64,000 nt of DNA, taken from NCBI RefSeq assembly GCF_016107395.1, contig NZ_JAAIKO010000003.1, forward strand, positions 248,001 through 312,000, read 5' to 3'. Origin of the DNA: Streptomyces fildesensis (GTDB taxonomy: Bacteria; Actinomycetota; Actinomycetes; Streptomycetales; Streptomycetaceae). The position numbers and the translations under genes are program-made. Below the pieces are notes generated by a model. It saw only the letters and a list, made by a program, of their open reading frames with translations. It searched no databases and was not told the DNA's origin. The stretch's first letter is position 1. Every line of letters begins with the position of its first letter. Below, piece after piece: positions 48,989 to 52,394 of this stretch.

Positions 48989-49036
48989 TGCACGTGCGCA
49001 TGCACGTGCACATGCACGTGCTGGTGCAACCGGTTA
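48989..49036 (+). repeat. 12-bp-phased TGCACGTG array before the DUF397 gene
   Basis: Four consecutive 12-bp units begin at 48989, 49001, 49013 and 49025: TGCACGTGCGCA, TGCACGTGCACA, TGCACGTGCTGG, TGCAACCGGTTA. Three contain the palindrome CACGTG. The array ends 50 bp before the DUF397 start, within a 305-bp gene-free stretch (48782-49086), the rest of which shows no gene. A matching array lies at 49879-49926. Confidence 0.88.
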
Positions 49037-49086
49037 TCATCTGGCTTACCCAGTAGGGCAGTTACGGGGAATTTGGGGAGCGTCTT

Positions 49087-49320
49087 ATGAGCCGGACACA
49101 CAATGGCATGGCCTCGACAGATCTCCAGGGAGTCGTCTGGCAGAAGAGTTTGCACAGCAACGCGAACGGTACGTGCGTTGAGCTGGCGCAGCTGCCCGGC
49201 GGTGAGGTGGCAGTACGCAATTCACGCTTTCCGGACGGACCCGCGTTGATATATACGCGGGCCGAGATCGAATCACTGATTCTCGGGGTCAAGGATGGCG
49301 AGTTCGACCACCTCATGTGA
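49087..49320 (+). CDS. DUF397 protein
   Basis: 77 residues: VVWQKSLHSNANGTCVELAQ, VAVRNSRFPDGPALIYTRAE, then ESLILGVKDGEFDHLM. DUF397 proteins are small partners of XRE/DUF5753 regulators in actinomycetes (WhiJ/Scr1-Scr2-like modules) and can inhibit the paired regulator. An XRE gene of that type and an HATPase gene follow at 49333-50872. The ATG has a GGGGAGCG SD. Confidence 0.88.
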   Translation: MSRTHNGMASTDLQGVVWQKSLHSNANGTCVELAQLPGGEVAVRNSRFPDGPALIYTRAEIESLILGVKDGEFDHLM

Positions 49321-49332
49321 CCGTATATGAAC

Positions 49333-49824
49333 CTATAGCGACGGGTCTTCGGCCATTCCGATCGGTGAATGGAAGAGGGCCCAGACGACTTTTCCCGCCC
49401 CGGTGAGCGGATGCCAGCCCCAGGTCTCGCTGTAGGACTCCACCAGGTGCAGCCCCCGTCCGGACTCCGCGACGAAGTCGGGCGTCCTTGCCACCGGACC
49501 GATGGCGCTGGGGTCGCGTACGGCGCAGACCACCCGTGAGGTCCAGCGCACCAGACTGAGATGGACCGGGGCACCGCCGGTGCCGGGGGGCACGCCGTAA
49601 CGCAGCGCGTTGGTGACGAGTTCCGAGGCGACCAGCTCGATGCTCTCGAAGAGTGGTGCCAGATCCCAGCGCTGAAGTGTCGCCCGGGTGAATCTCCGGG
49701 CGTCGCGGACGGCTTCGAAGCGTCCCGGCAGCTCGCACGTGGCGCCGCTGGACGCGGCCAGGCCCCCGGGGGCGAGCACTCCATCCCATAACGGCTCAAG
49801 CACAGTTGCGGCCTCAGTCCTCAT
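49333..49824 (-). CDS. RsbW/SpoIIAB-like HATPase (regulatory ATP-binding protein)
   Basis: 163 residues of a GHKL ATPase: ELVASELVTNALRYG (N box), VRDPSAIGPV, and SGRGLHLVESYSETWGW (G box). The fold is that of anti-sigma kinases, and stand-alone copies accompany XRE/DUF397 modules in streptomycetes. The start MRTEAATVLEPL leaves 54 bp to the array at 49879. The gene is convergent with DUF397 (12 bp apart) and divergent from the XRE gene. Confidence 0.87.
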   Translation of the reverse strand: MRTEAATVLEPLWDGVLAPGGLAASSGATCELPGRFEAVRDARRFTRATLQRWDLAPLFESIELVASELVTNALRYGVPPGTGGAPVHLSLVRWTSRVVCAVRDPSAIGPVARTPDFVAESGRGLHLVESYSETWGWHPLTGAGKVVWALFHSPIGMAEDPSL

Positions 49825-49878
49825 GCGCGCCCACTGGGTATCTGCACGAACCCCATGGTCCCCAACGCCCACACGGTA

Positions 49879-49926
49879 TGCAAGGGCGAATGCACGTGCA
49901 GATGCAAGGAATGATGCACGTGATGT
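49879..49926. repeat. 12-bp-phased TGCA array between HATPase and XRE genes
   Basis: Four units start at 49879, 49891, 49903 and 49915: TGCAAGGGCGAA, TGCACGTGCAGA, TGCAAGGAATGA, TGCACGTGATGT. CACGTG occurs in units two and four, 24 bp apart. A further TGCACG at 49843 is 36 bp upstream, still on the 12-bp phase. It occupies the 181-bp divergent promoter gap. Confidence 0.88.
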
Positions 49927-50005: not shown

Positions 50006-50872
50006 ATGACCACAGGGCAGCCGGGAGGCGGGTCCATCGTGCGACGTATTCTGCTGGGAGCTCAGCTGCGGCGGCTTCGCGAAGCGGGAGGAATCACCCG
50101 TGAGGCCGCCGGTTATTCGATCCGCGCGTCCGAATCGAAGATCAGCCGCATGGAGTTGGGACGCGTGAGCTTCAAGGAACGGGATGTTGCCGACCTCCTG
50201 ACCCTCTACAACGTGGTCGACGACGAGGACCGCGCGGCCCTCCTCGGGCTCGTACGCGAGGCGAACGTGGCCGGCTGGTGGCACGGGTACGGGGACGTCC
50301 TCCCGGCCTGGTTCCAGACGTATGTGGGTCTCGAGGAGTCCGCCTCACTGATCCGGACCTTCGAAGTGCAGTTCATCCACGGCCTGTTGCAGACCGAGGA
50401 CTACTCCCGTGCGGTCGTCGAGCTCGGCCACCCCGGCGCGGCCGCGTCCGAGATCGAACGCCGGGTCGGCCTGCGGATGGAGCGGCAGAAGCTGCTGGTC
50501 TCGGAGCGGGCACCGCACTTCGTCGCCGTCATGGACGAGGGCGCGCTGTACCGGCCGTTCGGCGGACGGGACGTCATGCGCGGGCAGTTGAGCCATCTGA
50601 TGGAAGTCGCGCAGCAGCCGAATGTGACGGTCCACGTCCTGCCGTTCGAAATCGGGGGCCATGCGGCGGGCGGCGGTGCGTTCACCCTGCTGCGATTCCC
50701 GGAGTCCGACCTGTCGGACCTCGTCTATCTGGAACAGCTCACCAGCGCGCTGTACATCGACAAGCGTGAGGAAGTGGACTTCTACGACAAGACCATGGAA
50801 AGGCTCTGCGTGGACAGTCTTTCCGCCGAGCGTTCGCTCGAGCGACTCCGCAAGATCCATCAACAGGCTTGA
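50006..50872 (+). CDS. XRE-family regulator with DUF5753 domain
   Basis: 288 residues: helix-turn-helix at about 20-75 (LGAQLRRLREAGGITREAAG, then SIRASESKISRMELGR) and the DUF5753 domain (about 100-280: ASLIRTFEVQFIHGLLQTED, LLVSERAPHFVAVMDEGALY). Related proteins such as WhiJ and BldB partners control development together with a DUF397 protein. The twin 12-bp-phased arrays flanking its neighbours are the likely binding sites. The ATG has GGAG upstream. Confidence 0.9.
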   Translation: MTTGQPGGGSIVRRILLGAQLRRLREAGGITREAAGYSIRASESKISRMELGRVSFKERDVADLLTLYNVVDDEDRAALLGLVREANVAGWWHGYGDVLPAWFQTYVGLEESASLIRTFEVQFIHGLLQTEDYSRAVVELGHPGAAASEIERRVGLRMERQKLLVSERAPHFVAVMDEGALYRPFGGRDVMRGQLSHLMEVAQQPNVTVHVLPFEIGGHAAGGGAFTLLRFPESDLSDLVYLEQLTSALYIDKREEVDFYDKTMERLCVDSLSAERSLERLRKIHQQA

Positions 50873-50936: not shown

Positions 50937-52394
50937 GTGTCGTACTTCTCCGAGTTGGCTCTTCAGTACATCGACGGTGAGTGGCGCTCCGGCTCCGGCT
51001 CCTGGGACATCGTCGATTTCAATCCCTACAACGGGGACAAACTCGCCTCGATCACGGTGGCGACGAAGGCCGAGGTGGACCAGGCGTACCGGGCTGCGGA
51101 ACGCGCTCAGACCGCCTGGGCCGAGACCAACCCGTACGCCCGCCGGCTGGTCTTCGAGCGCGCGCTGAAGGTCATCGAGGAGCGCGAGGCGGAGATCACC
51201 GAGGCGATCATCGCCGAGCTGGGCGGCACGTACCTCAAGGCCGGCTTCGAGCTCGCCCTCACCAAGGACATGCTGCGGCAGTCGATGCAGCTCGCGCTGC
51301 ACCCCGAGGGGCGGATCCTGGCGTCCCCGGTGGACGGCAAGGAGAACCGCCTCTACCGGAAGCCGGTCGGCGTCGTCGGGGTGATCAGCCCGTTCAACTT
51401 CCCGCTCTTCCTCGGTCTGAAGTCCATAGCCCCGGCGCTGGCGCTCGGCAACGCCGTGGTGCTCAAGCCGCACCAGAACACCCCGGTGGTCGGCGGCACG
51501 CTGATCGCGAAGATATTCGAGGAGGCGGGCCTGCCGGCCGGTCTCTTCAACGTCGTCATCACGGACATCGCCGAGATCGGCGACAGCTTCATCGAGCACC
51601 CGGTGCCCAAGGTCATCTCCTTCACCGGTTCCGACCACGTGGGCCGGCACGTGGCCACGGTCGCCGCCTCGCACTTCAAGCGGACGGTGCTGGAGATGGG
51701 CGGCAACAGCGCGCTCGTCGTCCTGGACGACGCCGACCTGGACTACGCGGTCGACGCCGCGGTCTTCAGCCGCTTCGCCCACCAGGGCCAGGTGTGCATG
51801 GCGGCCAACCGGGTGCTGGTGGACCGCTCGGTGGAGCAGGAGTTCACCCGGAAGTTCGTCGCGAAGACCGCCTCGCTGATCGTCGGCGACCCGGCCGACC
51901 CGGCCACCCAGATCGGCCCGCTGATCAACACCCTCCAGGCCGAGCGCATCACGGCCGAGGTCGCACAGGCCGTCGAGGCGGGCGCCACGGCGCTGCTGCT
52001 CGGTGAGGCCGACGGCGCCGTCGTGTCACCGACCGTGCTCGGCGACATCCCCGCGGACGCCGCGATCCTGCGCCGTGAGCTGTTCGGCCCCGTGGTCCTG
52101 GTGGTGCCCTTCGATGGTGAGGAGGAGGCGGTCCGGATCGCCAACGACACCCCGTTCGGGCTCAGCGGCGCCGTCCACACCCGGGACATCGAGCGTGGTG
52201 TGCGCTTCGCCCAGCGCATCGACACCGGCATGATGCACGTCAACGACGGCACCATCGCGGACGAGCCGATCGTGCCCTTCGGCGGTGAGAAGGCGTCCGG
52301 TGTGGGGCGGCTCAACGGCGATGCCACCGTGGACGCGTTCACGACCGTGAAGTGGATCTCCATCCAGCACGGACGCAGCCGGTTCCCGTTCTGA
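50937..52394 (+). CDS. NAD(P)-dependent aldehyde dehydrogenase
   Basis: 485 residues. Catalytic Cys near 287 (QGQVCMAANR), Glu in LEMGGNSALVV near 251, cofactor motif FTGSDHVGRHV and the ISPFNFPLFL block. It resembles benzaldehyde/vanillin dehydrogenases. The GTG start has an AAAGGGATA SD. It stands alone, 64 bp behind the XRE gene. Confidence 0.93.
   Translation: MSYFSELALQYIDGEWRSGSGSWDIVDFNPYNGDKLASITVATKAEVDQAYRAAERAQTAWAETNPYARRLVFERALKVIEEREAEITEAIIAELGGTYLKAGFELALTKDMLRQSMQLALHPEGRILASPVDGKENRLYRKPVGVVGVISPFNFPLFLGLKSIAPALALGNAVVLKPHQNTPVVGGTLIAKIFEEAGLPAGLFNVVITDIAEIGDSFIEHPVPKVISFTGSDHVGRHVATVAASHFKRTVLEMGGNSALVVLDDADLDYAVDAAVFSRFAHQGQVCMAANRVLVDRSVEQEFTRKFVAKTASLIVGDPADPATQIGPLINTLQAERITAEVAQAVEAGATALLLGEADGAVVSPTVLGDIPADAAILRRELFGPVVLVVPFDGEEEAVRIANDTPFGLSGAVHTRDIERGVRFAQRIDTGMMHVNDGTIADEPIVPFGGEKASGVGRLNGDATVDAFTTVKWISIQHGRSRFPF

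Follow-up and report, generated by a model that had tools for sequence, protein, structure and literature searches.

The window analysed here, 64,000 nucleotides of contig NZ_JAAIKO010000003.1 from a member of the Streptomycetaceae, contains a three-gene module with two arrays of 12-bp-phased repeats in its promoter regions. The module consists of a BldB-like DUF397 gene (77 aa, 49087..49320, plus strand; PF04149, E 7.9e-18), an AbaA-like, anti-sigma-type HATPase_c_2 gene (49333..49824, minus strand; PF13581, E 5.2e-12, translated from 49827) and a gene for a WhiJ-like regulator of 288 aa (50006..50872, plus strand). The HATPase start was read from the sequence as the ATG at 49824. The regulator combines an XRE-type HTH_31 helix-turn-helix (HTH) domain (PF13560, E 8.7e-16) with a C-terminal DUF5753 domain (PF19054, E 3.5e-59), and with the DUF397 and HATPase_c genes adjacent to it the locus has the composition of a WhiJ/AbaA/BldB cluster. 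The gene order is DUF397+, HATPase-, XRE+. Array A (48989..49028, plus strand) is located upstream of DUF397 and has TGCA at 48989, 49001, 49013 and 49025. Array B (49879..49922), with TGCA at 49879, 49891, 49903 and 49915, occupies the intergenic region from which the HATPase and XRE genes diverge. The arrays are about 0.9 kb apart.

A sequence-only reading of this DNA had described these eight TGCA starts, all of which we find in place, and the palindrome CACGTG in five of the eight units, which we confirm. It had also argued that such exact phasing is hard to get by chance. Apart from arrays A and B, the window has no run of at least three TGCA spaced exactly 12 bp apart, and 200 first-order resamplings gave 0.005 runs of at least three per window and none of four. 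The sequence TGCACGTG occurs 13 times against 3.4 expected. Ideally, a 12-bp unit comprises the dyad TGCACGTGCA and two further base pairs. As this unit is palindromic, TGCA also falls on a 6-bp half-unit grid.

The arrays are conserved within the genus. An orthologue of the XRE protein is present in 35/35 genus genomes, with the arrays alongside in 35/35. We read 30 of these loci; in the remaining five, coordinates alone place exact extended matches at the two positions. In array B, TGCA is found at -12, 0, +6 and +12 from the core TGCACGTGCA in 30/30 loci, and a fourth TGCA stands at +24 in nine and at +25 in 20 of them. Array A has TGCA at 0, +6 and +12 in 30/30 loci and at -12 in 28/30; its fourth TGCA (49025) recurs in 2/30, so that the conserved units span 48989-49020. 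Three units of each array are thus conserved and the fourth mostly is not, indicating a strict element of three units. Mean column identity across array A (32 bp) is 0.96, against 0.64 over the adjacent 40 bp on the left, and the three-unit block of array B likewise reaches 0.96, compared with 0.81 on the left and 0.85 on the right.

Two further elements had been linked to the arrays. The TGCACG at 49843..49848, in the HATPase leader and 36 bp from array B, had been thought to keep the same phase. A TGCA at this distance is found in 11/30 genus loci and also in four other genera (g6, g7, g13 and g16), but in 15/30 genus loci it stands 37 bp off. The 12-mer TACCCAGT(A)GGGC, noted next to both arrays, is conserved in 1/30 loci on the array A side and in 4/30 on the array B side. 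It accompanies both arrays in this genome only, and we rejected it as a shared operator.

For the rest of the family, we read 48 loci from the 211 other family genomes with a match, covering 12 of the 16 other genera. They comprise 40 loci chosen from the best listed matches and eight further Streptomyces-type (g9) loci. Thirty-four of the 40 chosen loci, which come from 12 other genera, share the gene order of the window (order 1). Six loci from two genera have the order XRE+, DUF397-, HATPase- (order 2), and five second copies elsewhere in the genus genomes have the order HATPase-/DUF397+/XRE+ (order 3); seven second-copy or orphan loci were read in total. Nineteen named loci and seven others were the same DNA as examined loci and were not counted twice; the counts include related, non-independent genomes. 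In 83/83 Streptomycetaceae trios of the three gene orders, the 260 bp upstream of the HATPase gene contain the exact core (30/30 in the genus, 34/34 and 8/8 in other genera, 6/6 in order 2 and 5/5 in order 3). Upstream of DUF397 it is present in 75/82 trios, the other seven having one mismatch (30/30 in the genus, 27/34 and 7/7 assessable in other genera, 6/6 and 5/5; locus L186, with 79 bp of upstream DNA, was excluded). Among the paralogues in the window's own genome, the exact core was found upstream of 0/11 HATPase and 0/10 DUF397 genes, one of the latter having a one-mismatch core. Phased units upstream of orthologues, whose absence the sequence-only reading had named as refuting its interpretation, recur across the family, and they are also found beyond it.

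The association also emerges when the motif is searched first. The 35 genus genomes contain 136 exact matches to the extended pattern TGCACGTGCANNTGCA, overlapping ones included. When their positions were compared by hand with those of the XRE loci, 118 fell at the main XRE locus, eight at second-copy XRE loci and ten elsewhere, so that 126/136 lie at this XRE subfamily. The ten matches elsewhere represent no excess over the 18 obtained with a reversed control pattern. The window's own genome contains two exact extended sites, both at this locus, and a search there for further targets found none beyond control (132 matches with up to two mismatches, 224 for the reversed control). The site looks dedicated to this module. 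A one-mismatch site in the same genome, TGCACGTACACTTGCA (C470:129286-129301), has an XRE-like fragment, interrupted by a stop codon, roughly 3 kb away; the two are perhaps the remains of a related module.

We consider it probable, at about 0.75, that the arrays are operators dedicated to the WhiJ-like XRE/DUF5753 protein encoded next to them, which would read both of them and govern the DUF397 and HATPase promoters. The sequence comparison itself shows where the arrays lie, their register, that they are conserved, and that they occur almost exclusively with this XRE subfamily.

The spacing of the units bears on the strongest alternative, in which one XRE dimer binds the single palindrome TGCACGTGCA, the neighbouring units are weak extras and the 12-bp register reflects a 6-bp half-site grid. 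We regard this as a possible, if less probable, explanation. The palindrome is the one element found nearly everywhere, array B in Streptomyces is mostly reduced to TGCA-N8-TGCACGTGCA, and several loci of other families have just one core. On the other hand, in a count over 13 genera with one locus each, TGCA pairs at 6, 12 and 18 bp upstream of HATPase number 30, 22 and 22, each in 13/13 genera, where about 0.2 pairs are expected per spacing (0.23 for 12 bp). Upstream of DUF397, 14 pairs at 12 bp were counted in 10/13 genera against 0.20 expected, together with 17 pairs at 6 bp. The second copies are also difficult to reconcile with a single palindrome. Their arrays contain six 12-bp units over 72 bp, several of them non-palindromic, in 12-bp register (z 6.6-8.4, 0/200 shuffles, best of lags 6-16), which provides independent support for the 12-bp period.

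It is unlikely that a different regulator, rather than the XRE protein, reads the arrays at such DUF397 and HATPase genes. This explanation would account for two orphan XRE copies that are without these neighbours and have no array (core in 0/2). Array and XRE are, however, conserved together across families. The XRE protein is found at E <= 1e-75 in 246/249 family genomes and, in a class sample of 296 genomes, in 67 that do not belong to the family. We read 20 chosen loci from 19 of these 67 genomes, representing seven families. At 15/20 loci, in five of the seven families, at least one module gene has the exact core in its 260-bp upstream region, and at 17/20 one has a core with at most one mismatch; shuffled upstream regions gave 0.0002 exact and 0.0173 one-mismatch cores per region. 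By gene, the exact core was found at 9/17 DUF397, 6/7 HATPase and 6/20 XRE genes. In loci L189-L191 it is located at DUF397 although over 1.2 kb separate this gene from the start of XRE. The array mark thus accompanies the regulator in distant actinobacteria, and is therefore very probably its binding site. Since the 35 genus genomes have no more matches elsewhere than the control, another reader would have to serve one kind of locus. Weaker evidence in the same direction is that two of the three family genomes without the XRE protein at this threshold are also without the exact extended site, as are many genomes that have it. Passages of PMC10294661 also offer a precedent for a WhiJ-type reader in WhiJ9.

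Less likely still is that the array, as happens in many XRE systems, serves chiefly for autoregulation of the XRE gene. Array B is inside the common HATPase-XRE intergenic region in order 1, locus L188 has the core at XRE, and WhiJ9 is described as apparently autorepressed in passages of PMC10294661. Array A, however, stands about 0.9 kb away at DUF397, and the altered gene orders leave the XRE promoter without a core. In order 2, the exact core is found at DUF397 and at HATPase in 6/6 loci each and at XRE in 0/6. In order 3, one common array precedes HATPase and DUF397 (5/5) and none precedes XRE (0/5). With the core at 0/11 XRE promoters in these two orders, the conserved targets of the arrays are DUF397 and HATPase. 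XRE as a target in all gene orders was therefore rejected. The sequence-only reading had the arrays controlling the whole module; once the gene order changes, however, they remain at DUF397 and HATPase and are missing from the XRE promoter. On this comparison, XRE autoregulation is not their conserved purpose. Chance or functionless simple-repeat expansion, for which the short and partly perfect units might speak, is already contradicted by the comparison, with array identity at 0.96 against 0.64-0.85 in the flanks and arrays standing in differing sequence contexts across genera and families.

Several observations, besides the orphans, weigh against the arrays being dedicated operators of the XRE protein. 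The loci were fetched by XRE similarity, so that the co-occurrence of array and XRE is partly by design and the motif-first counts alone are free of this. The XRE proteins of orders 2 and 3 are only 66-69% and 60-63% identical to that of the window. The recognition helix speaks for the XRE protein as reader, being ASESKISRMELGR or very similar, nearly constant in the set examined and different in the own-genome paralogues. Yet the second copies, which have arrays, and the orphans, which do not, both carry the variant helix SHAKISRLELGR, indicating that helix and operator are not related one-to-one. A 6-bp spacing of half-sites is unusual for an XRE dimer. In the other families, 5/20 loci have no exact core within 260 bp, and L188 has the core upstream of XRE with none seen at DUF397, where the upstream region is partly masked. 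In order 1, the core also lies within 260 bp of XRE in 63/64 loci, so it may have a role at the XRE promoter there. At the HATPase promoter, inspection by eye found no -10 element at a fixed distance. Finally, two results of the period scans belong here. The main scan (lags 6-16, 3-6 units, 260 bp upstream of XRE) found no array at p <= 0.05 at the 14 own-genome paralogues scanned of 15, and in the module regions lag 12 or 6 reached p <= 0.05 in only 14/43 DUF397 and 19/33 HATPase regions.

The best lag of the module regions was 12 or 6 in 30/43 DUF397 and 27/33 HATPase regions, compared with 15/41 control regions; the DUF397 row of L188 is an artefact of a masked N run. Among the seven WhiJ9-like loci that served as positive controls, just three gave lag 10 at p <= 0.05, so the scan misses short arrays or those with misplaced starts. 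A narrower scan (lags 8-15, three units; 21 paralogues) returned L002 at lag 10 (p 0.030) and L014 at lag 12 (p 0.007), and three of 41 paralogue upstream regions (60 shuffles) had p <= 0.05, two of them at lag 12. As canonical paralogues in the window's own genome are without comparable arrays, this operator type is not general for WhiJ-like genes; generality for all of them was rejected on the 14 XRE upstream regions. The two lag-12 regions are those upstream of DUF397 in L005 and upstream of XRE in L017 (p < 0.02), where the self-similarity may reflect coding sequence or chance.

The position of array A relative to the DUF397 promoter suggests how it might act. A predicted -10 element, TATCAT, is located at 49035..49040 on the plus strand. 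The distance from the last TGCACGTGCA core to TATSAT is 34 bp in 30/30 genus loci. In the 34 other-genus loci, the distance from a core or near-core unit to the hexamer, with TAGACT also allowed, is 16, 17, 40, 52 or 53 bp. All of these distances leave a remainder of 4 or 5 when divided by 6. The -35 position lies inside the array, and no TTGACN-like hexamer is visible there by eye. An array at -35, in fixed register with TATSAT and without a -35 consensus, makes class II-like activation somewhat likelier than occlusion; an occluding repressor would occupy the same -35 position too.

If the XRE protein is the reader, it would bind the units cooperatively through its HTH domain, in a side-by-side arrangement in which each 12-bp step adds a twist of about 51 degrees. 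The bound array would fill the -35 region of the DUF397 promoter, more likely activating transcription. The DUF397 product would both modulate the XRE protein and be its target, which would create a feedback loop. The HATPase would constitute the output, additionally gated by the bldA tRNA via a TTA codon. An activator antagonised by DUF397 seems the likeliest sign, at slightly better than even odds, because in S. venezuelae loss of BldB raises the abaA paralogues and WhiJ9 is needed for iosA activation, as passages of PMC10294661 report.

The TTA (bldA-type leucine) codon is codon 12 of the HATPase gene (49789..49791, minus strand). It is conserved in 30/30 genus and 31/34 other-genus loci (61/64 in the main gene order), exactly at codon 12 in 29 and 30 of them, respectively; the numbering of the scan begins one codon early. 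The order-2 loci have no TTA codon in this gene (0/6), and one of the five second copies has it elsewhere in the gene. Upstream of the HATPase gene, an open reading frame of 11 codons with an ATG start (49821-49856, minus strand; MGFVQIPSGRA) ends in a TGA that overlaps the HATPase ATG (ATGA). An open frame with the same overlap is found in 29/30 genus loci, often with V-Q-I-P-R-G near its end. Its ATG start is variable within the genus, and the frame is not general outside it. It is possible that it represents a leader peptide or a coupling device. An aldehyde dehydrogenase gene (50937-52394, plus strand) follows 64 bp past the XRE gene, as in the Streptomyces locus L208, and may be a module member. 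On the DUF397 side, the module adjoins metG (start 48781, minus strand).

A more far-reaching picture can be drawn, which we consider doubtful. The module would be an actinobacteria-wide unit, several families old, in which a WhiJ-type regulator polymerises head to tail on 12-bp arrays at two promoters, those of the antagonist DUF397 and of a bldA-gated anti-sigma-type HATPase. DUF5753 would be a catalytically silent phospholipase-D/TrmB-like sensor fold, and the paralogues would use different units and periods (10 versus 12 bp). If true, both sequence and helical register would insulate about twenty parallel WhiJ circuits from one another.

Clusters of the WhiJ/BldB/AbaA type have multiplied strongly in Streptomyces, and their regulated targets have been obscure. 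Passages of a 2013 review (PMC4255298) say that information on WhiJ targets and on the anti-sigma-like protein is lacking, and in the literature found, just the WhiJ9-iosA system has been worked out since. The same review passages describe the SCO3421 cluster of S. coelicolor as the most widely conserved WhiJ paralogue, its XRE protein occurring in nearly all complex actinomycetes, and report a TTA codon in the AbaA-like SCO3423 in 12/14 Streptomyces. SCO3424 is described as similar to AbaA and BldB in passages of PMC6767563. The present module shares the near-universal presence in the family, the occurrence in other complex actinomycetes and the TTA codon in the HATPase gene, and is probably the SCO3421-3424 cluster. 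This assignment is based on conservation and the TTA codon, not on a sequence match; no S. coelicolor name appears among the 120 listed of 4389 hits. For SCO3421-SCO3424, the PMC4255298 passages describe no operator or target. With the predicted operator, two target promoters would be defined for the paralogue that is most widely conserved, together with a site known to the base and seen at more than 80 family loci. Passages of PMC6767563 and PMC10771440 place SCO3424 and SCO3423 among the sigma-E targets, so envelope stress may be a further input.

Scr1/Scr2 and other S. coelicolor XRE-DUF397 pairs likewise combine an XRE protein with a DUF397 partner and act as pleiotropic regulators according to passages of PMC6262351 and PMC10364602. 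In those pairs, unlike in the present module, the usual position of DUF397 is after the XRE gene. Neither paper's text contains the terms motif, EMSA or palindrome. A role of XRE-DUF397 pairs as type II toxin-antitoxin systems, in which the XRE protein would neutralise a toxic DUF397 protein, was proposed in a passage of PMC2701414.

The closest known system is WhiJ9 of S. venezuelae. Passages of PMC10294661 report that it binds three tandem direct repeats of the unit CGNNCTCAAC beside its own gene, in the iosA-whiJ9 intergenic region, that the third repeat (DR3) matters most, and that iosA activation requires WhiJ9. According to the same paper, BldB, a DUF397 relative, does not bind DNA. The statement of the sequence-only reading that no operator of this form had been described was therefore too strong, although sequence and period do differ. 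A search of open-licence literature did not find TGCACGTGCA in connection with Streptomyces, and for WhiJ, direct repeats and binding site it returned the WhiJ9 paper as the only one concerning WhiJ binding. The three-repeat CTCAAC pattern has no match in the window's own genome. The WhiJ9 consensus pattern has matches in 14/394 family genomes, from which 12 loci were fetched. Seven g9 (Streptomyces) loci (L116-L122) have repeats such as CTCAACCGATCTCAACCGGTCTCAAC directly before the XRE gene at exactly 10-bp period, and are presumably WhiJ9 orthologues; the other five have no XRE match.

Both systems have tandem repeats beside a whiJ-like gene, a BldB paralogue alongside and a neighbouring gene that is, or would be, acted on. 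The WhiJ9 repeats, CGNNCTCAAC with a probable 10-bp period, lie 113 bp from the start site in the passages describing them. The present arrays consist of TGCACGTGCANN at 12 bp, built on the palindrome TGCACGTGCA, stand at two promoters and abut the -10 element, binding here being predicted from sequence. They support the proposal in PMC10294661 that each WhiJ acts on the neighbouring abaA gene. The predicted operator thus resembles that of WhiJ9 in kind; what is new is the unit, the period and the presence at two promoters.
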